Origin: a virus
Length of the DNA stretch: 42,840 nt
Direction: 5' to 3' (one strand)
Virus record (IMG/VR): IMGVR_UViG_3300032223_001256
Span: 1 to 42,840 of that record
The notes beneath the pieces were generated by a model. That model was not told the origin of the DNA and did no database searches. It saw only the letters and a list, made by a program, of their open reading frames with translations. Positions 1,441 through 41,621 of this stretch are shown in pieces. The position numbers and the translations under genes are program-made. Every line of letters starts with the position of its first letter. The first letter of the stretch is position 1.

Positions 1441-2298
1441 ATGCGACCCACCCCCGGTGCGTCTAACCTCGTCCTGAGCGTCGGCATTGTTGACGCTCCC
1501 ATCGCTCTCTATTCCATCGTGGATGAGAAGGTGGACGAGGTAAAGTTCAAGAACGTCGGCCCCGACGGCAACTTCCCTAAGCGTGTGGACATTCCTCTGT
1601 CCGCCGCCGTCCTTGACGCCAAGGGTGAGAAAGTCACCCACATCAAGGAGTGCGATCCCATCCGCTACGATCAGATGCAGAAGGGCTTTGAAATCTCCAA
1701 GGAGGAGATCGTTATCCTTGAGCAGGATGAGATCAATGCCCTCTTGCCAGAGAAGTGCTCGTCCATCACGATCACCAGCATCGTGCCGGTTGAGCAGATC
1801 AATCCGCTGAGGTTCAACGCCACCTACTACGTTGGTATTGCGACCAAGACGGGTGACGAAGAGCTCGCTGCCAATCGTCACCAGTTGGTCAGCGCGATGA
1901 TCGGCGACGGCTGGGCTGCTATCGGTGAGCTGGTGCTTCGCAACAAGCATCAGCAGGTTATGGTGTACAACCGCAACGGCAACCTGATGCTCACAACGCT
2001 GTGCAGCGTGGCTGCCGTCAATCCTGCTCCCGTCGTTGAGGGAGAAGCGAACTTGGATCTGCTTGAGGCTACCGCTGGACTCGTTGAGTCCATGCGTGGC
2101 ACCTACGATCCTTTCGCCTTCAGAAATGAGTACAAGGATGCGGTGCTGGAACTTGTTCGTGCCAAGGTGAACGGTCAGCCCATGCCGACGGTCACCAAGA
2201 AGTCCAAGGCTGCGGTGAGCGACGACATCCTGCTCGCCAATCTCAAGGCGGTCAGCCCGAGCAAGCCCAAGCCCAAGACGAAGTCCAAGGTCAACTAG
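1441..2298 (+). CDS. ku: Ku-family DNA end-binding protein
   Basis: A 285-aa product behind a strong AAAGGAGAAACC site. It follows bacterial/phage Ku: an N-terminal beta-barrel start (VGIVDAPIALYSIVDE), then a segment like EI.VLE.DEI.ALLPE followed by SITITSIVPVEQINPLRFNA, matching the Ku core block that runs into the FVP...DP..F pattern, then the barrel strands ending LTTLCSVAAVNP. The last 40 residues are lysine-rich (SKPKPKTKSK), like the basic tails of many bacterial Ku proteins that help DNA binding. Bacterial Ku is a homodimer that threads onto double-strand ends and recruits LigD. An ATP-dependent ligase gene lies 0.3 kb downstream in the same operon, which strengthens a DNA end-joining role. 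Confidence 0.9.
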   Translation: MRPTPGASNLVLSVGIVDAPIALYSIVDEKVDEVKFKNVGPDGNFPKRVDIPLSAAVLDAKGEKVTHIKECDPIRYDQMQKGFEISKEEIVILEQDEINALLPEKCSSITITSIVPVEQINPLRFNATYYVGIATKTGDEELAANRHQLVSAMIGDGWAAIGELVLRNKHQQVMVYNRNGNLMLTTLCSVAAVNPAPVVEGEANLDLLEATAGLVESMRGTYDPFAFRNEYKDAVLELVRAKVNGQPMPTVTKKSKAAVSDDILLANLKAVSPSKPKPKTKSKVN

Positions 2299-2305
2299 GA
2301 GGAAC

Positions 2306-2590
2306 ATGAGTCACATCTATCACGAGCCGATTGCCGAGGCTGGACTGTGCGAGGATTGTCCCGGTTGTGAGCGTCTGGCGGAGCACCCTCTCCACTACTT
2401 TGACGCGACCAATCTCAGGCACTACCTGATGCGCACCGTCAACTGGCTTCAGCACGAGGGTGACCCCGAGTGGATGCCGCGCAACAAGACGGAGAGCACA
2501 GCCATGCACAACCTTGAGGATGTGATCCGCACGGTTCGCACCATTGAGGACAAGGGTGTCATGGATATGGTCATCCTCAACAAGGGCTGA
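2306..2590 (+). CDS. Hypothetical protein between Ku and ligase, 94 aa
   Basis: Starts 8 nt after Ku behind AGGAGGAAC, and the ligase follows 3 nt after its stop, so the three genes are probably co-translated. The N-terminus has CEDCPGCERL, a close cysteine cluster, followed by histidines (HPLHYFD) that could form a metal site. The rest is helical and ends VRTIEDKGVMDMVILNKG. Similar small CxxC..C proteins occur in actinophages without known function. A role in end joining is possible only by position. Confidence 0.65.
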   Translation: MSHIYHEPIAEAGLCEDCPGCERLAEHPLHYFDATNLRHYLMRTVNWLQHEGDPEWMPRNKTESTAMHNLEDVIRTVRTIEDKGVMDMVILNKG

Positions 2591-2592
2591 CC

Positions 2593-3321
2593 ATGGACTT
2601 CGCCCTGTGCAAAGAGATTGTCGATCTGCCCGACACAACGGGCAACATGATCTGGCAGCAGAAACTCGATGGCGTCAGGGCGTTCATCTCTGAGAAAACC
2701 ATCCGGCTGCGGACAATCTCCTTCTCAAATGAGGGGGTGAGCGTCCCAGCCGGGTGCGTTCTCGACGGAGAGATTATCGGTGATCGCTTCTCCGATGTCG
2801 TCCCGGCACTAACCAAGCGGGATTGGAACTCAATCAAGTTCGTGCCTTTTGATATCGTCAAGCACGACGGTGACGACGTTCGTCGTGAGTCACTGCTTGT
2901 TCGACTCAACCTCCTCAACGAGGTTGCCAACAATGCTCTGCCAATCTTCGCCTTTCCCGACAGTGAGATGCCGAAGGTGCCTCTTGATTGGGAGGGCGTG
3001 ATCGGTAAGCCGATGCGCTCCACTTATCGTGCTGGTCGTGAGTCGTGGGTCAAGTGGAAGCACATCAACTTCATGGACGCTGTCATTCTCAATCTTGAGA
3101 ACGGCAAGGGACGCTGGTCAGACAGCGTGGGCAAGATTGTCTTCGGCACACCCGAAGGCAAGGTTCTAGGAACTGCCGCTGGCTTTGATGAGAGGACGCG
3201 CCGACTGATGACGCTGAACGGCGTCGACTACATCGGCAAGCCCTGTGTTATCAAGCACTACGGCATGAACAAGCGGCGGCTACGCAATCCAATCTTTCAC
3301 GGAATGAAGGAGGAGCAGTGA
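2593..3321 (+). CDS. ATP-dependent DNA ligase
   Basis: This 242-aa protein has the nucleotidyltransferase motifs of ATP-dependent DNA ligases in order: motif I KLDG at 24-27 with K24 as the AMP-accepting lysine, LDGEI at 58-62, FDI at 86-88, motif IV EGVIGK at 134-139 and motif V WVKWK at 152-156. An OB-fold-like domain follows (GRWSDSVGKIVFG, then GFDERTRRLM). The size equals a minimal ligase (catalytic plus OB domains), with no LigD polymerase or nuclease part. It would seal nicks or rejoined breaks using ATP. Its place next to Ku suggests the two act together. The ribosome binding site is weak (AAGGGC), consistent with coupling to the upstream gene. Confidence 0.88.
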   Translation: MDFALCKEIVDLPDTTGNMIWQQKLDGVRAFISEKTIRLRTISFSNEGVSVPAGCVLDGEIIGDRFSDVVPALTKRDWNSIKFVPFDIVKHDGDDVRRESLLVRLNLLNEVANNALPIFAFPDSEMPKVPLDWEGVIGKPMRSTYRAGRESWVKWKHINFMDAVILNLENGKGRWSDSVGKIVFGTPEGKVLGTAAGFDERTRRLMTLNGVDYIGKPCVIKHYGMNKRRLRNPIFHGMKEEQ

Positions 3322-3782
3322 TTAGCACCTATCTGTCCAGCAAGGACAGGAAAGAAGGCAAGGTTGATCTTCGCAACTGGATCGTCAGCGAGGATTACAA
3401 CGACGCTATCCGATGGCGTAAAGATCTCAAGGTGAAGGTTGATGACTTTCGTTACATGTCGCTTTACGATGGGCTGATCTACGATCCCGAGATCACATAC
3501 ACCGACGGTGGCAACTGGGTCTATGACGCTAGCGCATCAGGCGGAGCGTACATGGAGGGCGGCGTGAATGCCGAATACAAGTGCCCCTGCTGCGATGAGC
3601 GAATCGCCATTGATCTTGATCGTGGTGAAGTCTGGACGGGCGACGTGCAATGCGTGTGGGCTGATGACTTCCGATGGCAGCCTCATTATCACCACGGGGT
3701 TCTACTTTCGGTGAAGGTCAAGATCATCCCAAGCGATTGGACTCAAACTCGCACCATTATGGCTAACTACGTTAGGAGCTAA
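3318..3782 (+). CDS. Hypothetical protein with zinc-ribbon-like CPCC, 154 aa
   Basis: A GTG start overlaps the ligase stop (GTGA) behind AAGGAGGAG. The N-terminal part is basic and charged. A CPCCDERIAIDLDRGEV segment near residue 90 resembles one half of a zinc ribbon, with a later cysteine and an HYHHG histidine cluster as possible partners. No catalytic family recognised. Operon position with Ku and ligase is the only functional hint. Confidence 0.65.
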   Translation: MISTYLSSKDRKEGKVDLRNWIVSEDYNDAIRWRKDLKVKVDDFRYMSLYDGLIYDPEITYTDGGNWVYDASASGGAYMEGGVNAEYKCPCCDERIAIDLDRGEVWTGDVQCVWADDFRWQPHYHHGVLLSVKVKIIPSDWTQTRTIMANYVRS

Positions 3783-3783
3783 T

Positions 3784-4515
3784 ATGCTGAAGCGTTCGCA
3801 CGACCGCAAAGTCGCCAATCACGTCACCAATAAGAAGTCCCGCATCAAGAATGCGTTCGGGCTTCCGGCTGGTGAGTCCTGCCCCAACATGACTTCGATC
3901 TGCACGTTGATCTGTTATGCGGGGGTTCTTGAGAAGATCTACCCCGGAGTCTACGCTGTGCTTCGGCACAACTTCGATGCTCTGCTCGCTTGCGACGGAG
4001 ACATCAAGCAGATGGCTGCGCTGCTCAACGATATGATCGCTGAGTTCCGTGCCGACTGCGAGAAGCGTGGCGTTGAGGATCGCTTCTTTCGCATCCATTG
4101 GGACGGCGACTTCTTCTCCGGCTCCTACGCACGGGCTTGGCGTCGTGTCATCAACGCCAACCCCGACATCGACTTCTGGGTTTACACCCGAGTCCCCTTC
4201 GCTGCGCGGCTGCTTGATAAGACCGCAGCCACGGTGTACTTCTCTGCAGATGCGGAGAACGAGCCGGTAGCCAAGAAGCTCGCACGGGCAGGCATCAAGA
4301 TCGCCTACCTGCACGAGTCGTTTGAGGATGCGCGTGACGCCGCTGTTCGTCTGAACATCAAGGCGGTCAAGTGCCCCGAGAACAACAAGAAGATTCCGCT
4401 GATCACTGACAATAAGTCAGCCTGCGGATCGTGCGGCGTGTGCATTGAGGGCAGGAACAACGTCCTGTTCTCCCGTACGAAGAACAAGAAGCGCAAGCCG
4501 CTTCCTGTTTGTTAG
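3784..4515 (+). CDS. Gp88-family phage protein
   Basis: A 243-aa product behind TAGGAGCTAAT. It matches the actinophage 'gene product 88' family: an N-terminal NAFGLPAGESCPNMTSIC...CYA block, a central RIHWDGDFFSGSYARAWRRVI segment, then DIDFWVYTRVP and a C-terminal group of cysteines (CGSCGVC) like a zinc or iron-sulfur ligand set. The biochemical activity of this family is not established to my knowledge. The multiple conserved cysteines and the barrel-like layout have led others to compare it with metal-cluster enzymes, but that is speculative here. It is the last gene before a promoter, so it probably ends the Ku/ligase operon. Confidence 0.75.
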   Translation: MLKRSHDRKVANHVTNKKSRIKNAFGLPAGESCPNMTSICTLICYAGVLEKIYPGVYAVLRHNFDALLACDGDIKQMAALLNDMIAEFRADCEKRGVEDRFFRIHWDGDFFSGSYARAWRRVINANPDIDFWVYTRVPFAARLLDKTAATVYFSADAENEPVAKKLARAGIKIAYLHESFEDARDAAVRLNIKAVKCPENNKKIPLITDNKSACGSCGVCIEGRNNVLFSRTKNKKRKPLPVC

Positions 4516-4591: not shown

Positions 4592-5620
4592 ATGAGCCAT
4601 GAACTTGAGATCCGCGCCGATGGAACCGGTGCAGCCGCCTACGCCTACAAGCCTGCGTGGCATGGGCTTGGCGTTGTCGTGGACGGTCTGATGACCGCCG
4701 AGGAGTGCTTGCATCGTGTGCCGGAGCTGGCTTCGCCCATCGTTCCGGAGCCGGTGTATGCGAAGAACCCGAACACGGGACTGTTTGTTCCGATTGACGG
4801 GTACGTCGCCAACGTCCGGTCGGAGGACTTCAAGCCGCTGGCTATCGTCGGCGAGCGGTACAAGATCCTCCAGAACGTCGAGGCGCTCTCGTTCCTCGAT
4901 GACCTCGTCGATTCCGGCGAGGCGAAGTACGAGGCTGTCATCAGCCTCAAGGACGGTGCCAAGGTCAGCCTGCTGGCTCGCCTGCCCCGCGAGGTCAAGA
5001 TCGGCGGCATGGAGGAACTGTCCACGTTCATCCTGCTGTCGAACTCGCACGATGGTTCGTCCGCCATCACTCTGGCTGCGACTCCTGTCCGGGTCGTCTG
5101 CCAGAACACTCTGACTCTCGCCCTCAGCACGGCGAAGCGCACCTTCAAGGTCCGCCACACGTCGTCGCTGTCGGGTCGTCTGTCGGAGGCTCGCACGGCG
5201 CTGGGTGTGGTCTTCAACTACATGGCGGAGTTCGAGGAGACGGCTGACCAGCTGCTCAACACCTCGTTCACCGACGCGCAGTTCGAGGAGTTCCTCGCCT
5301 CGCTCATCGTGATGCCGGAGGACGAGGGTCGTGGCAAGACCATCGCCACCAACACTCACGATGCGATCCGCTCCATCGCCTACAACAACCTCCGGGTTGA
5401 GGATGGCAACCGCAACGTGCAGGTCAACCTGCCGGACATGGAGCCGATCAAGAACACGAAGTGGTGGGCGCTGAATGCTGTCAGCACCTACAACCAGCAC
5501 TTCGCCACGAGCAAGAAGACGAAGCGCACCTCCGCTGAGGAGAACCGCTTCAAGCGTGTGATGGGTGACGGCAACACCAACATCACCGACAAGGCGTTCG
5601 GGCTGCTCACCGCAGTCTGA
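4592..5620 (+). CDS. DUF932 / phage-plasmid-like protein
   Basis: A 342-aa product behind AAAGGAGAAACTC and its own promoter. It matches the DUF932 (TIGR03299, phage/plasmid-like) family: KPAWHGLGVVVDGLMTAEE near residues 20-38, then VGERYKILQNVEAL and the family block from LSNSHDGSSAI to VRVVCQNTL, and a C-terminal NTKWWALNAVSTYNQH region. Family members are common in large phages, and their function is not settled. GC content and codon bias are higher than in the neighbours, with many CTC/CTG and GTC codons, which suits strong expression. The terminator-like hairpin just after it suggests a single-gene transcript. Confidence 0.85.
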   Translation: MSHELEIRADGTGAAAYAYKPAWHGLGVVVDGLMTAEECLHRVPELASPIVPEPVYAKNPNTGLFVPIDGYVANVRSEDFKPLAIVGERYKILQNVEALSFLDDLVDSGEAKYEAVISLKDGAKVSLLARLPREVKIGGMEELSTFILLSNSHDGSSAITLAATPVRVVCQNTLTLALSTAKRTFKVRHTSSLSGRLSEARTALGVVFNYMAEFEETADQLLNTSFTDAQFEEFLASLIVMPEDEGRGKTIATNTHDAIRSIAYNNLRVEDGNRNVQVNLPDMEPIKNTKWWALNAVSTYNQHFATSKKTKRTSAEENRFKRVMGDGNTNITDKAFGLLTAV

Positions 5621-7911: not shown

Positions 7912-8103
7912 ATGACGCCCGTCATTTTGTTTTCAGACGAAGATCTTGATCACATCGGTGCTGCTCTTTCGCACACCGCGTGGCGCATCGAGGGTCAGAA
8001 GGGTGCGGAGGAGATCATTGAAGCCTACCGCACGATCATTGAGCGGCTGCCCAACAACCATCGGTTCAGCCTGCCGCCTAGTGCGGTTCTGAGCCATTCG
8101 TAA
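7912..8103 (+). CDS. Small hypothetical protein, 63 aa
   Basis: Behind AAAGGAGACAGGAC. Helical, with a conserved-looking DEDLDHIGAALSHTAWRIEG start and a proline-serine tail. No family recognised. It ends the run of close-packed genes; a 73-nt gap follows before the next start. Confidence 0.6.
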   Translation: MTPVILFSDEDLDHIGAALSHTAWRIEGQKGAEEIIEAYRTIIERLPNNHRFSLPPSAVLSHS

Positions 8104-8176
8104 ACATTCCGTTAAGCCTGTAAGGTTGACGGCGCAAGTCGCGACAACCCTGCGAACCAACCCGAAAGGAGACTCC

Positions 8177-8527
8177 ATGAGCGAGTCCACCCCCTCCCCC
8201 GCTCCCTCGATCACCGACGAGCAGCTCAACTCGATTGTTGAGCAGATCACCATGGATGCGACCATCCTCGCATTCTCCAAGATGTCCGAGGGCGTCTTGA
8301 TCGGTCTTGACGGCTGCCGCGATAACGGCTGGGATCTGAACGACCGTCAAAAGGTTGAGATCCTGCAGTGCCTCAACTTCACGTTCCGTGACTACGAGTC
8401 GCAGCTGCGTAACTACGCTGCGATCATCGTCGCCATGGCGACCTCAGTCCTCACGGACGAGGACAAGAAGTTCGTCGCCGATATGATTGAGGCGGCGCAC
8501 AAGAAGGACGAGGAGCAGCAGGGCTGA
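8177..8527 (+). CDS. Helical hypothetical protein, 116 aa
   Basis: ATG 8177 follows GAAAGGAGACTCC and is preferred over a TTG at 8126. The product is mainly helical (DEQLNSIVEQITMDATILAFSKM) and ends in a charged tail (KKDEEQQG). A perfect 13-bp hairpin follows, so this gene probably ends a transcript. Codon use is GC-rich, as in the DUF932 gene. Function unknown. Confidence 0.65.
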   Translation: MSESTPSPAPSITDEQLNSIVEQITMDATILAFSKMSEGVLIGLDGCRDNGWDLNDRQKVEILQCLNFTFRDYESQLRNYAAIIVAMATSVLTDEDKKFVADMIEAAHKKDEEQQG

Positions 8528-8534
8528 TCACTGT

Positions 8535-8569
8535 GGGCGGGTTGGCATTGGTGTGGTGCCAACCCGCCC
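8535..8569 (+). terminator. Perfect 13-bp hairpin, terminator-like
   Basis: GGGCGGGTTGGCA (8535-8547) pairs perfectly with TGCCAACCCGCCC (8557-8569) around a 9-nt loop. The sequence after it is CTTCAATCT, only weakly T-rich. It starts 7 nt after a stop codon. It is likely an intrinsic terminator with a short tail. Confidence 0.65.
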
Positions 8570-8589
8570 CTTCAATCTACAGGAGAGAT

Positions 8590-8832
8590 ATGTCTGTTTC
8601 TGAACGTAAGTCCGTCGCCGACCGACGGGCGGATGAGATTGACGAAATGCTTGAGCGAGTTGAGGCAATGTTTCCCAACTCTAAAGATGGATTCGGCAAG
8701 GACTTCCGTCTACTACTTGACATTGCCGATTACCATCGTAACCGTTTCACGTTCAGCACGACGATCAGCGTGTTGAATGTAGTGGGTGAACTGATTACTA
8801 GAATGGAGGACGACCATGAGCAAGATGTCTGA
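8590..8832 (+). CDS. Small hypothetical protein, 80 aa
   Basis: ATG 8590 follows AGGAGAG; a GTG at 8533 in the same frame would start inside the 13-bp hairpin and is rejected. The product is helical (VADRRADEIDEMLERVEAMF). Its end overlaps the next gene by 17 nt. Function unknown. Confidence 0.65.
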   Translation: MSVSERKSVADRRADEIDEMLERVEAMFPNSKDGFGKDFRLLLDIADYHRNRFTFSTTISVLNVVGELITRMEDDHEQDV

Positions 8833-9228: not shown

Positions 9229-9695
9229 TGACCACCCTTAGCGTTAAGAATGTAAAGTATGCCGAGTTCGCATCGGAGGAGACGATGTGCTTTGAGGCTA
9301 CGCTGTACGTTGACGGCAAGTCCGTCGGTCGTGTCAGCAATGCGGGACGCGGCGGTCCGAACGACTACGAGTTCGACACCACCGATCTGGAAGCCACCAT
9401 CAAGGAGGCGGACATCAAGGTTGACTTCCTTGGTCATACTCTGACCAAGGATCTTGACATCATCGTTGACGAACTTGTCAATGATGTTCTGATTGCCAAG
9501 GACGCCAAGTCCTTCCGCACCAAGGTCGCCAAGAAGAACAACCTCACGTCCGAGCAGGTACGAGTGTTCCTCTGCGATAACGGTGAGCTCGTTGCTCGTG
9601 GCGTCAACGGCACGAGCGATGACGAGGTTGCTGCGGACATCGGCAACAATGCTCGCCGTATTGACAACGTCACTGCCCCTAGTGTTACCATCTAA
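9228..9695 (+). CDS. Conserved phage hypothetical protein, 155 aa
   Basis: Behind AAAGGAGGAC. The N-terminus VKNVKYAEFASEETMCFEAT followed by LYVDGKSVGRVSNAGRGG matches a family of small proteins found in many phages and mobile elements, in which a short beta domain is followed by helices. No activity is established for it. The C-terminal half is charged and helical. Recognition is from the KYAEFASEET.CFEA.LYVDGK pattern. Confidence 0.7.
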   Translation: MTTLSVKNVKYAEFASEETMCFEATLYVDGKSVGRVSNAGRGGPNDYEFDTTDLEATIKEADIKVDFLGHTLTKDLDIIVDELVNDVLIAKDAKSFRTKVAKKNNLTSEQVRVFLCDNGELVARGVNGTSDDEVAADIGNNARRIDNVTAPSVTI

Positions 9696-9704
9696 GGAGG
9701 AAGC

Positions 9705-9893
9705 ATGACCGATAATGGACACGTCTACGACCCGAAGACTGATCGCTGCATGTACTGCGAATGTCGTCCTTGGGGAGACTGGGCGCAAGAGCCGTGCGGC
9801 GCAACCGAACTAAGCAAGCCGCCAATGAACGAAGAGCAGTGGGACGCCAAGTTGCGTCTTTATTCTGAACTGAAAGAGAAGGGAATCGTATGA
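9705..9893 (+). CDS. Small Cys-containing hypothetical protein, 62 aa
   Basis: Behind AAGGAGGAAGC. The N-terminus HVYDPKTDRCMYCECRPWGDWAQEPC provides a CxxCxC plus a later cysteine that may bind a metal ion. The rest is a charged helix. The stop overlaps the next start (ATGA). Function unknown. Confidence 0.62.
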   Translation: MTDNGHVYDPKTDRCMYCECRPWGDWAQEPCGATELSKPPMNEEQWDAKLRLYSELKEKGIV

Positions 9894-10303
9894 GCACCAC
9901 CGAGATCGACAAGTACACCCGTACATTCAAGGAGATCGCCGCGACGGGCGCTTCAAATGAGGAGCTGCCGACTGACATTGACGGCATCGGCTCTGCATGG
10001 AGCATCACATACGGCGGAGACATTGGACTTGACAGCAGGATCTACACGCCCATCTTGGAGGCGGCGCTGAACTGCGTCGTCGAGGCGGGTATGTACCTGA
10101 CTCTTGTCCTTGAGGACGCGCTTGGTAACAGGCTTGCGTTTGACTGTACCGTCACCTCTCCCGTCAAGACTCTGGGCAAGGGGTGGGGCAACGAGGACGA
10201 TCCGCATGTCTTCGTCTACCCGTACTTTGCGAAGACCAGCAGCGTGGGCATCTATCCGCATAAGGTCTACCTGCACACCATCTGCAACATCCACTTCCCG
10301 TAG
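9890..10303 (+). CDS. Hypothetical protein, paralogue of the gene at 7495
   Basis: A 137-aa product that aligns over its full length with the 134-aa product at 7495-7899, with the strongest match at the C-terminus (KVYLHTICNIHFP against KVYLHQILNINLP) and a shared W.ITYGGD strand. Start overlaps the previous stop. Both copies look intact. The divergence suggests different partners or substrates, but nothing points to a function. Confidence 0.7.
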   Translation: MSTTEIDKYTRTFKEIAATGASNEELPTDIDGIGSAWSITYGGDIGLDSRIYTPILEAALNCVVEAGMYLTLVLEDALGNRLAFDCTVTSPVKTLGKGWGNEDDPHVFVYPYFAKTSSVGIYPHKVYLHTICNIHFP

Positions 10304-11212: not shown

Positions 11213-11448
11213 AGATAATCGGACCGTTCACCCTGCACGAGCATCTGACGGACAATCCCGAGTACGAACTACAATTTGAGTGGGACGAGGCATTCGACAG
11301 TCGAGGCTTGAAGATTACTCAGATTTTTCAAGATGAGACGGGCGGTGCTGCCGTCACTATCTGGATGAACCGAACGGAGGCACAGCAGTTGCATAAGTAT
11401 CTGTTTGGCTGCGTCAACTACCGTCCTCTTCCTGAGGAACTGCAATGA
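11209..11448 (+). CDS. Small hypothetical protein, 79 aa, TTG start
   Basis: TTG 11209 overlaps the previous TGA and the stop overlaps the methyltransferase start by 4 nt, so the frame fits exactly between two genes. The product is beta-rich and ends in a helix with TEAQQLHKYLFG. A rare start codon and weak ribosome binding site suggest coupled, low translation. Function unknown. Confidence 0.6.
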   Translation: MKIIGPFTLHEHLTDNPEYELQFEWDEAFDSRGLKITQIFQDETGGAAVTIWMNRTEAQQLHKYLFGCVNYRPLPEELQ

Positions 11449-12641
11449 AGGTAGGCAGCACATTTACCGGAGTCGGCGGTGCCGACCTTGGGTTTGAGTG
11501 GGCGGGATTCGATATCGCTTGGCAGTGCGAGCTGGACAAGTGGAAGCGTCAGGTGCTTGCCGCACACTGGCCCGACATTCCGATCTACGAAGACATCACA
11601 CAACTACATGACCCGGAGCCTGTCGATCTGTTGATGGGCGGCTTCCCCTGTCAGGATTTGTCCGTGGCAGGACGACGGAAAGGATTTACAGGTGAGCGAT
11701 CAGTCCTTGCTTTCGAGTTCCTCCGACTCGCAGAGAATATTCGACCTCGCTGGATGCTCTTGGAAAACGTACCGGGACTCCTTAGCAGCAATCGCGGAAG
11801 AGACTTCGCCCGACTCATCGATGAAGTGGTCGATTGCGGGTACGGCATCGGCTGGCGAGTTCTCGATGCCCAGTTTTTCGGCACGGCGCAGCGGAGACGG
11901 AGAACATACATTGTCGCCCGTCGTATCGAGTCTGGTCTCGATTCTAGAGACGCAGGTTTCGCCGCACTATCTGCTCTCCTCGAAAGCGGCGAAGGGGATA
12001 TTACTTCGTGCCTCACGCCGGAACAAATCGCTTCCCTCCGAGTTGGAGGCGGCGTTGAAGGAGGCGGCGGAGCGCGACGACGAGTAGTCCCGATTCAGAA
12101 CACGGTCATCGGTCGCTCCGACAAGGCGGGACCCAATGGACGTGGACACGGTGACGTTGACGGCGTGATGTTCACGCTGGATCGCAGCGGTCCTCACGCT
12201 ATCGCAGCCGTGCCGATTCAGGACGGACGTGCGATGGACAAGAAGCAGAACGGGCTGGGCGTTGGTGCCGAGGGTGATCCGTCCTATACTCTCGACCGCA
12301 CGGGCGCTCAGAGCGTGGCTGCCTACCGCAAGAGCAGCCGTGCTCGTTCGGCTGACGGATACGAGACGTGGGTTGAGGACGGCGTGTCCAACACGCTCAA
12401 TCGATTCGACGTGGGCGATGTGCGTTCGACGCAGATCGTCACCGAGGGTTCGGTAGTCAGGCGGCTCACGCCCCGGGAGACTGAGCGTCTCCAAGGATGG
12501 CCGGACGACTTCACCGCGCCCGAGGGCGTGGACGCGCCGGACAATAAGCGGTACGCTGCGTGTGGCGACGGCATTGCTGCTCCGGTAGCATACTGGATCG
12601 CAAAGCGAATTATGGAAATCGACAAGGAGATGAATGCGTAA
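11445..12641 (+). CDS. dcm: DNA (cytosine-5) methyltransferase
   Basis: A 398-aa Dcm-type enzyme that would transfer a methyl group from S-adenosylmethionine to C5 of cytosine. Motif I is FTGVGGADLGFEWAGF (7-22), motif IV GFPCQ (66-70) with C69 as the catalytic cysteine, motif VI ENV (107-109), motif VIII QRRRR (149-153), and motifs IX-X are RLTPRETERLQGWPDDF and GDGIAAPVAYWIAKRI near the C-terminus. The target recognition region lies between residues 160 and 340 and is low in complexity. No restriction endonuclease is adjacent, so it is likely an orphan enzyme protecting phage DNA. Residues 83-214 are encoded by DNA that also encodes another protein in a second frame (11692-12087). Confidence 0.92.
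   Translation: MKVGSTFTGVGGADLGFEWAGFDIAWQCELDKWKRQVLAAHWPDIPIYEDITQLHDPEPVDLLMGGFPCQDLSVAGRRKGFTGERSVLAFEFLRLAENIRPRWMLLENVPGLLSSNRGRDFARLIDEVVDCGYGIGWRVLDAQFFGTAQRRRRTYIVARRIESGLDSRDAGFAALSALLESGEGDITSCLTPEQIASLRVGGGVEGGGGARRRVVPIQNTVIGRSDKAGPNGRGHGDVDGVMFTLDRSGPHAIAAVPIQDGRAMDKKQNGLGVGAEGDPSYTLDRTGAQSVAAYRKSSRARSADGYETWVEDGVSNTLNRFDVGDVRSTQIVTEGSVVRRLTPRETERLQGWPDDFTAPEGVDAPDNKRYAACGDGIAAPVAYWIAKRIMEIDKEMNA
11692..12087 (+). CDS. Overprinted gene inside the methyltransferase gene, 131 aa
   Basis: In the +1 frame relative to the methyltransferase, a GTG at 11692 follows GGAAAGGA with a 7-nt spacer. The product ends with SLVSILETQVSPHYLLSSKA, AKGILLRASRRNKSLPSELE and a charged tail. That end matches a widespread phage protein type whose C-terminus reads roughly SL..VLE......YYLS..A..GILRRA.RRG..LP..L..AL. 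The upstream part (SMKWSIAGTASAGEFSMPS) also fits that type, which usually has a W...GTA/GM....C/E motif there. A chance frame would not reproduce this pattern, so I regard it as a real, fully nested gene. Its function is unknown; homologues I recall tend to sit beside or inside phage methylase genes. Confidence 0.75.
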   Translation: MSDQSLLSSSSDSQRIFDLAGCSWKTYRDSLAAIAEETSPDSSMKWSIAGTASAGEFSMPSFSARRSGDGEHTLSPVVSSLVSILETQVSPHYLLSSKAAKGILLRASRRNKSLPSELEAALKEAAERDDE

Positions 12642-19752: not shown

Positions 19753-19825
19753 CCGCCCGTAGCTCAACGGATAGAGCAACAGACTTCTAATCTGTAGGTT
19801 GCACGTTCGAGTCGTGCCGGGCGGA
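19753..19825 (+). tRNA. tRNA-Arg(UCU): tRNA-Arg (anticodon UCU)
   Basis: A full cloverleaf: acceptor CCGCCCG/CGGGCGG, D-arm GCTC-AACGGATA-GAGC, anticodon arm ACAGA-CTTCTAA-TCTGT with anticodon TCT, variable AGGTT, T-arm GCACG-TTCGAGT-CGTGC, discriminator A. CCA is not encoded. It reads AGA/AGG codons, which are common in the tail genes of this window and rare in the early block. Confidence 0.95.
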
Positions 19826-37209: not shown

Positions 37210-38265
37210 ATGAGCCTAGTTACAGCCAGAAAAGCGGTCTCCTCGGCGGAGTACGAGCAGAAGCTATCCAATCTTCCTAAGCTAACCAACGCACAGAAGA
37301 AGGAGCGCCTCGCTCAAATCCTCGCCGACAAGACCAACGCGATGCAACGCATCGGTCAGGGTATGATCGGTCCAATCCAGATCCGTCTTCGCTACGAGGG
37401 TATTGTTCGCAACGTCCTCATCGAAGACACACTGGAGCGCGGTCCTCTCATGCCTTACGACATCCTTGACGATCTCGGTATGGCGTATGTCCTTAACCAG
37501 ACAGACGCTGAGGTCAAGGTGCAGGTCTTCGAGGGCAAGCAAGCCTTCCCGCAGCTCTTCCGCATCGCGGCGTTCCCCCGCGTCCGCAAGGAAGATCTGT
37601 ACTACCTCCGCGTCAACGCCATTGAGTACGCTCAAGACGAGTCGCGTCAGGCAATCCAGAAGCAGGAGGACTACCGTCTCATCCTGCTCCTAGAGTCCGC
37701 CATCACCGATTACGGTACGGCTGGTCTCAACCCCGTCGGTGGTACTCAGACCGGCATCTCGTCGGGTCCGTCGGGCTACGAGAATGAGAAGACTGTCCTC
37801 ATCGGTGCAGGCGCACCGCTTGAGCCAGTCGACTTCTACTCGGCAGTCTCGCAGATCGAGATCGAGCAACTAGAGGCTCGTCGCGTGCTCATGCACCCGC
37901 AGGACATGCGCGACCTCTACACATGGGACATCAACGTCACAGGCTGGGCCTTCAAGGACAAGACCGTCGCTGGTGAGAAGATCACACAGTTCGGCGAGTT
38001 TGACCTCATGAAGTCGGTCATCGTGCCACAGGGCGAGGTCTTCCTCGCTGCTGAGCCGAACTACGTCGGCGTGTTCCCCGTCATGTACTCGCTTGACGTG
38101 GAAGAGAACCATCAGGTCGAGCAGTTCTACAAGGGCTTCGTCATGGACGAGCTCGTGGGCATGCTCGTGCTCAACGCTCGCGGTCTGTCGCGTATCCTCA
38201 AGTCGGATGCGTACGCCTCCAGCGGTGTCATCACCAACATCGCCGAGCGCGGTCTCTACTCGTAA
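37210..38265 (+). CDS. Major capsid protein
   Basis: A 351-aa product behind AATAAGGAAACCAGTT. It follows protease, scaffold and decoration genes and is followed by a strong terminator. The N-terminal 50 residues are charged and helical (a possible cleaved delta region); later blocks RVLMHPQDMRDLYTWDINVT, KSVIVPQGEVFLAAEPNYVG and YKGFVMDELVGMLVLNARGL are typical of HK97-fold capsid proteins with an E-loop and P-domain. Strong bias to C-ending codons (CTC, ATC, CGC) suggests very high expression. No direct sequence proof of the fold is possible here. Confidence 0.8.
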   Translation: MSLVTARKAVSSAEYEQKLSNLPKLTNAQKKERLAQILADKTNAMQRIGQGMIGPIQIRLRYEGIVRNVLIEDTLERGPLMPYDILDDLGMAYVLNQTDAEVKVQVFEGKQAFPQLFRIAAFPRVRKEDLYYLRVNAIEYAQDESRQAIQKQEDYRLILLLESAITDYGTAGLNPVGGTQTGISSGPSGYENEKTVLIGAGAPLEPVDFYSAVSQIEIEQLEARRVLMHPQDMRDLYTWDINVTGWAFKDKTVAGEKITQFGEFDLMKSVIVPQGEVFLAAEPNYVGVFPVMYSLDVEENHQVEQFYKGFVMDELVGMLVLNARGLSRILKSDAYASSGVITNIAERGLYS

Positions 38266-40550: not shown

Positions 40551-41621
40551 ATGAAGGTTGCTGTCTATAACATATCTAAGAACGAAGAGCAGTTCATCAA
40601 ACGTTGGTCCGAGTCTGCCAAAGACGCCGATCTGATTCTTCTTGCTGATACCGGCTCTACCGACAACACCGTGGCTCTTGCCAAGGAGTGTGGTGTTGAG
40701 GTTGTGGAGATCAAGGTTGATCCGTGGCGTTTTGATGTCGCTCGCAATCTGTCTCTTGATGCTGTGCCTGAGGATTTTGATTACTGCATCGCTCTTGATG
40801 TGGACGAAGTCCTACTACCCGGTTGGCGAGAAGGTATTGAAAAGGCTCACGCTGCTGGCATTACGCGTCCCCGTTACAAATATGTCTGGTCATGGAACCC
40901 CGACGGCTCTGAGGGCCTGACCTATGGCGGCGACAAAATCCATGCTCGCAAGGATTATCGCTGGAAGCATCCTGTCCACGAGGTCATTGGATCTACCACA
41001 GGGAACGAGACACAACAGTGGTACGAAGAGATTCAGATTCATCACTACCCCGATCACACTAAGTCTCGTGGTCAGTACTTCCCGCTTCTTGAGTTGTCGG
41101 TGCAGGAAGATCCAGATGATGATCGTAATGCCTATTACTACGCTCGTGAACTCTACTTTCACCGCCATGAGGGAGACAACTATCAGAAGGCGATCAATGA
41201 GTTCAAGCGACATCTGGCTCTACCACGCGCTGTGTGGCGTCCAGAACGCGCCAGAGGGATGCGCTATCTAGCTGAGTTAGAACTAAACGAAAGAGAGACG
41301 TGGCTCCTGAGAGCCTGTGCAGAGGCTCCTGACAGGCGCGAGGGCTGGGTGGAGTTATCCCTTTACTATCATGACCAACAGCGCTGGGAGGCATGTCTAG
41401 CGGCCTCTAAGAGGGCTTTGGAGATCAAAGAGAAGCCGCTGGAGTATCTTTGCGAGGAACCTGCATGGGGTTCTCTGCCGTGGGATCTGGCTGCTGTGTC
41501 GTCTTATCAGCTGGGATTGGTGTCTCAGGCTCTTCACTACGGAGAGAAGGCTGTTGAGTTTGAACCCAATAACGAGCGTCTCTGCACGAATTTGGAGGCG
41601 TATCGCGCATCTAATATGTAG
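40551..41621 (+). CDS. Family 2-like glycosyltransferase with TPR C-terminus
   Basis: A 356-aa GT-A fold enzyme. The N-terminus MKVAVYNISKNEEQFIKRW and DTGSTDNT (33-40) match the nucleotide-sugar binding block; DVDE (83-86) is the DxD-like metal site. Residues 100-170 hold the acceptor part (HARKDYRWKHPVHE, then HHYPD). From about residue 190 the protein is helical with TPR-like repeats (YYYARELYFHRHEGDNYQKA; VELSLYYHDQQRWEACLAAS; VSSYQLGLVSQALHYGEKAV). It would add a sugar to a protein or glycan. Lying among virion genes, capsid or tail glycosylation is plausible; host-surface modification is the alternative. Confidence 0.85.
   Translation: MKVAVYNISKNEEQFIKRWSESAKDADLILLADTGSTDNTVALAKECGVEVVEIKVDPWRFDVARNLSLDAVPEDFDYCIALDVDEVLLPGWREGIEKAHAAGITRPRYKYVWSWNPDGSEGLTYGGDKIHARKDYRWKHPVHEVIGSTTGNETQQWYEEIQIHHYPDHTKSRGQYFPLLELSVQEDPDDDRNAYYYARELYFHRHEGDNYQKAINEFKRHLALPRAVWRPERARGMRYLAELELNERETWLLRACAEAPDRREGWVELSLYYHDQQRWEACLAASKRALEIKEKPLEYLCEEPAWGSLPWDLAAVSSYQLGLVSQALHYGEKAVEFEPNNERLCTNLEAYRASNM

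Follow-up and report, generated by a model that had tools for sequence, protein, structure and literature searches.

A candidate end-joining module on a phage genome fragment: a Ku homologue and a minimal ATP-dependent DNA ligase encoded in one gene run

The Ku–ligase gene run

The window analyzed here, the whole 42,840-base stretch of the viral record IMGVR_UViG_3300032223_001256, is apparently a fragment, and terminal repeats are absent from it. On its plus strand lies a tight run of four genes encoding a Ku homologue (285 aa, 1441–2298), a 94-aa protein with a CxxCxxC motif (2306–2590), a minimal ATP-dependent DNA ligase (242 aa, 2593–3321), and a 154-aa ORF with no assigned function (3318–3782). 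The gaps between them are 7, 2, and −4 nt, the last being an overlap with the ligase stop. Two further plus-strand genes follow, encoding a GP88-family protein (3784–4515; PF17338, 2.2e-45) and a DUF932 protein (4592–5620; PF06067, 4.6e-55), which we treat as neighbors only. The preliminary description of this DNA, which had placed a Ku, a small CxxC protein, and a ligase with a full set of nucleotidyltransferase motifs in one compact operon, is borne out as far as these genes, their motifs, and their spacing are concerned.

The Ku assignment is based on matches to PF02735 (E 3.5e-12; 47 bits against a curated cut-off of 25) and to phrog_4873, annotated as Ku-like DNA end binding (2.3e-21). 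The β-barrel core spans approximately residues 17 to 187. Matches to solved bacterial Ku structures reach 1.5e-10 at best, with the others weaker, and the score against TIGR02772, the NCBIfam equivalog model for bacterial NHEJ Ku, is 112.4 bits, under its cut-off of 150. Alignment reveals a C-terminal segment, LLANLKAV, followed by a short lysine-rich tail (2230–2289, plus strand); this segment aligns with the minimal C terminus (D/LL-A-L-A pattern) of bacterial Ku proteins.

The ligase, comprising a nucleotidyltransferase domain and an OB fold, matches phrog_114 (1.6e-19) and scores 26.0 bits against Pfam DNA_ligase_A_M, barely below the cut-off of 26.2; its match to DNA_ligase_OB_2 is likewise below threshold. 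In the standard numbering, the intact motifs are I (KLDGVR, residues 24–29), III (LDGE, 57–60), IIIa (FDIV, 86–89), IV (EGVIGK, 134–139), V (WVKWK, 152–156), and a VI-like motif (RNPIFHGMK, 231–239). Motifs I, III, IIIa, IV, V, and VI together with the OB fold place the protein in the ATP-dependent DNA ligase superfamily, and its key residues are invariant across six aligned phage ligases. The best PDB match is the ligase domain of Mycobacterium tuberculosis LigD (2.8e-7). The best of 11 NCBIfam models is TIGR02779 (NHEJ_ligase_lig), at 58 bits and far below its cut-off of 227.75; the same model ranks first for the ligases of two related records, G001 and G018, described below. AlphaFold models of Ku and the ligase, built from two-row alignments, reached pLDDT values of 31.6 and 28.7, respectively, and were discarded.

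The source phage and its relatives

Among the matches listed, the major capsid protein of the window (37210–38265; family phrog_2522) is 52 to 56% identical to those of Cluster C mycobacteriophages, and the Rhodococcus phages E3 and Finch and the Gordonia phages Skog and Pupper fall within the same range. A second record, IMGVR_UViG_3300043446_001855 (G001; 71.5 kb), encodes a capsid protein 92% identical to that of the window, runs collinear with the window for most of its length, and contains a match to a tail-sheath C-terminal domain (22.9 bits, below the cut-off of 26.9). Judging from the capsid affinities, together with this domain and the collinearity, the window is most likely a piece of a large myovirus of Actinomycetota. 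Neither the window nor G001 matched PF03237, the one Pfam family with which terminase was sought. Elsewhere, the window carries a C5-cytosine DNA methyltransferase gene (11445–12641; PF00145, 1.2e-58), a single tRNA-Arg gene with a TCT anticodon (19753–19825), and, among the structural genes, a β-1,4-glycosyltransferase-like gene (40551–41621; phrog_13126, 5.9e-116).

The Ku and ligase of G001 are 60% and 79% identical to those of the window, and their genes adjoin directly: Ku ends in TAA, and the ligase starts at the next base, with 0 nt between them. NG86 dN/dS values between the two records are 0.29/0.90 for Ku and 0.14/1.39 for the ligase, indicating purifying selection on both. Whereas the window has the order Ku, 94-aa gene, ligase, GP88, and DUF932, in G001 the homologue of the 94-aa gene and the GP88 gene come first, followed by DUF932, directly upstream of Ku, and then Ku and the ligase. 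The order of the neighbors has thus been reshuffled, and Ku and ligase stayed together through it while the 94-aa gene did not; this conservation of adjacency within the family extends over two records, the window and G001.

It had been suggested in the preliminary description that the 94-aa protein may be an unrecognized partner, a third NHEJ component; its position between Ku and the ligase, with gaps of 7 and 2 nt, speaks for this. The protein matches no family among the Pfam, PHROG, and NCBIfam profiles. Its homologue in G001 lies 2.4 kb from Ku, adjoins neither Ku nor the ligase, and has diverged fast (31% identity, dN 0.83). No homologue was found in an 18-kb stretch around the Ku gene of another relative, G041, and a viral contig with a Ku–ligase pair of its own, L242, has an unrelated DUF7352 protein in the corresponding place. 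Since the homologue sits elsewhere in G001, the 94-aa protein is not, as judged by gene order, a conserved partner of Ku and the ligase, and we consider a third-component role extremely improbable.

We kept 80 of 94 capsid-related loci and looked for Ku and ligase in the 47 whose contigs are 9 kb or longer. Ku occurs in three of these 47 records (G001, G018, and G041) and a phage-type ligase in four (G001, G012, G017, and G018). The distant relative G018 carries both genes, 57 kb apart, with an AAA ATPase and a metallopeptidase-like protein encoded just upstream of its Ku (L125:3303–5873). In G012 and G017, the ligase is present and Ku was not found. G041, whose capsid protein is 93% identical to that of the window, has a divergent Ku and no ligase on 76 kb; its Ku (L114:9353–10069, minus strand) stops right after the core and so lacks the C-terminal segment that, by alignment, is present in G001 and in similar form in G018. 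This correlation between C terminus and ligase covers four Ku sequences, and G041, with neither ligase nor segment, provides a natural comparison with the window and G001, which have both, for the role of the Ku C terminus.

Ligase is found in two of the three Ku carriers and in two of the 44 other records (Fisher p 0.016, a value that ignores kinship and unequal fragment length). Among the 12 records 120 kb or longer, one of which (G018) has Ku, the same co-occurrence gives p 0.17. A match to the ligase profile in G040 was weak (E 0.006) and was not confirmed by phrog_114. Pfam searches of Skog, Myrna, E3, Finch, Pupper, and Dietrick found Ku in none of the six and DNA ligase in none. Domains of the LigD type, namely polymerase (PF21686) and phosphoesterase (PF13298), were found in none of four phage records, three of which are shorter than 80 kb. 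Because many of the records may be fragments, absences in the relatives are soft. No relative turned up in a viral scan with the window Ku alone; when the query was the DUF932 protein, the ligase, the ligase pair, or the Ku pair, the G001 contig was the sole match each time.

These distributions bear on the proposal that Ku and the ligase could circularize or repair the ends of phage DNA. In the first case, the pair would circularize the injected genome via short overhangs, with its own ligase replacing host LigD; a precedent exists in Corndog and Omega, which have 4-nt 3′ overhangs as well as Ku and which are thought to circularize by NHEJ (PMC4351075, PMC3706429). Against this reading, 44 of the 47 capsid relatives yielded no Ku, and a 160.8-kb relative with a 127-bp terminal repeat (G019) has neither gene. 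Cluster C phages use headful packaging. The genome of a Cluster C1 relative assembled as circularly permuted (PMC9583779), and in such a case terminal redundancy would suffice. Because most relatives lack Ku, obligatory circularization is less likely than accessory repair or end protection. We regard circularization as rather improbable.

Ku and ligase in other viruses and in cells

We searched 50,697 named phage records with five Ku queries, which matched 33, 82, 84, 81, and 82 records. Those among the matches listed are mycobacteriophages of the Cluster O and Cluster J types and one short fecal fragment, the exceptions being two Gaia rows, which match through an Lsr2-like tail only, and Nebkiss, in which the Ku match is partial. 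No Rhizobium phages are named in the organism tallies of the five queries; the Rhizobium phage vB_RleM_PPF1 has a gene annotated as a non-homologous end-joining DNA ligase (NC_025427.1, 27820–28707). Pfam searches of three Ku phages, Firecracker, WXIN, and Ryadel, found a DNA ligase in none, in agreement with the earlier view that this phage, unlike known Ku phages, brings a ligase of its own. The same search of the viral records of L006, L008, and L009 also found none (0 of 3); the Ku proteins of L006 and L008 are of bacterial type and may be host sequence inside provirus predictions. The Ku of MT838252 (L003), labeled as phage, looks like part of a bacterial fragment, judging by the other reading frames and by its tree position, and it was not counted. 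A limited literature search found no published description of a phage Ku paired with a phage DNA ligase.

A wider viral scan yielded 17 Ku loci, around which we ran a ligase profile on approximately 8 kb on each side where present. One of the 17, contig L242, has a ligase near Ku: the genes for Ku (7995–8792), a DUF7352 protein, and a 315-aa ligase (9291–10238) lie in a row, with typical phage genes around them. The L242 Ku is 26% identical to that of the window, and blastp detects no similarity between the two ligases; L242 therefore looks like a separate Ku–ligase pairing with another small protein between. On the same contig, a MoxR/CbbQ-like AAA ATPase and a VWA protein (CoxE/CobT-like) join Ku, DUF7352, and the ATP ligase in one row (L242:4163–10238). 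The pair is partly conserved: it is adjacent in G001, L242 has a like pair, and among the capsid relatives both genes are patchy (Ku in 3 of 47, ligase in 4 of 47, G041 without ligase).

The Ku tree separates the Omega/Corndog types from a group that unites the G041 and G001 sequences with that of the window (SH-aLRT 99); the Ku of G018 lies far off. The ligase tree places the viral ligases together (support 70), on very long branches and outside the cellular ligases. Both placements are unsure because of the long branches. Capture of a LigD domain from a host, as the origin of the ligase, was set aside, since the tree, with these branches, gives it no support. The best-scoring cellular matches of the ligase include archaeal stand-alone ligases of approximately 291 aa, encoded by genes that overlap or abut Ku. 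Ku-adjacent ligases, 26 of the 80 cellular matches, rank higher than the others (Mann–Whitney p 0.0026), a weak signal; among the top 5, 10, or 20 of the 80, they are not significantly enriched.

A possible end-joining role and its place among known systems

Published work has the LIG domain bound by the Ku core and shows that a minimal Ku C terminus suffices to stimulate isolated LIG (PMC9638933). Since the phage Ku consists of a core, a minimal C terminus, and a basic tail, and the ligase is a LIG-type core, the simplest reading is that Ku would hold the ends and the ligase would seal them. We give an even chance to the reading that, in a large phage, the two form an accessory end-joining module of two components that is self-sufficient for ligase. 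In such a module, a Ku homodimer would thread onto DNA double-strand ends and bracket them, and the co-expressed 242-aa ligase, comparable to a LigD reduced to its LIG domain, with neither polymerase nor phosphoesterase domain, would seal ends that are already ligatable, namely blunt ends or short complementary overhangs with a 5′-phosphate and a 3′-OH. Because no polymerase or phosphoesterase was found in the four phage records searched, unclean ends could not be processed. The most likely occasion would be the repair or protection of phage DNA after breakage by the host or its defenses or during replication, and the module would work where host NHEJ is absent or unusable; it would not be an obligatory circularization device. 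We infer DNA binding, ligation, contact between Ku and ligase, co-expression, and the biological substrate.

The main rival is Gam-like protection by Ku alongside an unrelated replication ligase: Ku would shield the ends of injected or replicating phage DNA from the host nucleases RecBCD, AddAB, or AdnAB as Mu Gam does, and the ligase would be a replication nick-sealer and a chance neighbor. Gam-type end binding is described as blocking RecBCD loading (PMC12407980), and an ATP ligase is a common gene in phages that lack Ku, with 177 records matching the L242 ligase at E ≤ 1e-3 and G012 and G017 as further cases. The Ku of G041, which lacks the C-terminal segment and has no ligase with it, the ligases of G012 and G017 without Ku, and the placement, unsure on its long branches, of the window ligase outside the NHEJ ligases all count against an end-joining module and would fit independence. 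However, the adjacency of Ku and ligase is kept in G001, and the two genes lie near each other in the unrelated L242; on the whole, we consider independent action possible but less likely.

Discussion of phage NHEJ has so far centered on borrowing from the host, of LigD by Ku or of a ligase by Gam. With a phage-borne ligase, ends could be joined in hosts lacking NHEJ, and the end-joining module proposed here would rank among the smallest possible sets, offering a direct test of whether Ku and a bare ligase suffice. More tentatively, Ku and a LIG-only ligase might amount in some phages to a complete minimal NHEJ system, assembled more than once, that would repair defense-cut DNA without a template and independently of host LigD, the Ku C-terminal segment being kept with the ligase and lost in a sibling without it. 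A phage with its own ligase also offers a testable idea of how phages may survive double-strand cuts made by restriction or CRISPR.

Among known systems, the Ku proteins of Omega (Cluster J) and Corndog (Cluster O) resemble that of the window in being phage-encoded, single-domain, and members of phrog_4873. In the primary NHEJ paper on these phages, the phage Ku reportedly works with host LigD. The window differs in having a ligase, whereas Firecracker, Ryadel, and WXIN, of the Omega/Corndog type, have no DNA ligase match; moreover, Ku proteins of this type are 23 to 28% identical to the window Ku, lie on another branch of the tree (with long branches), and belong to another type of phage. Mu Gam is a Ku-type phage end-binding protein that works with an Escherichia coli ligase (PMC8136500, PMC12407980); Gam thus uses a host ligase, whereas the phage of the window encodes a ligase gene. 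Bacterial Ku and LigD likewise combine Ku with an ATP ligase, and it is a LigD domain, that of M. tuberculosis, that the window ligase matches best in the PDB, but the window has the ligase domain alone, and both of its proteins score below the NCBIfam equivalog cut-offs. In archaeo-prokaryotic NHEJ of the Methanocella type (Ku, Lig, Pol, and PE), the subunits are described as separate yet co-expressed (PMC4797286). By comparison, neither Pol nor PE was found in the four phage records searched, and the window ligase is approximately 50 aa shorter and is not nested with the archaeal ligases. As in the window, however, a stand-alone ligase lies beside Ku, and the archaeal Ku tails, among those shown, are mostly of the minimal C-terminal type, like that of the window Ku. 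By gene arrangement and sequence comparison, these archaeal stand-alone ligases abutting Ku are the nearest cellular counterpart of the arrangement in the window.
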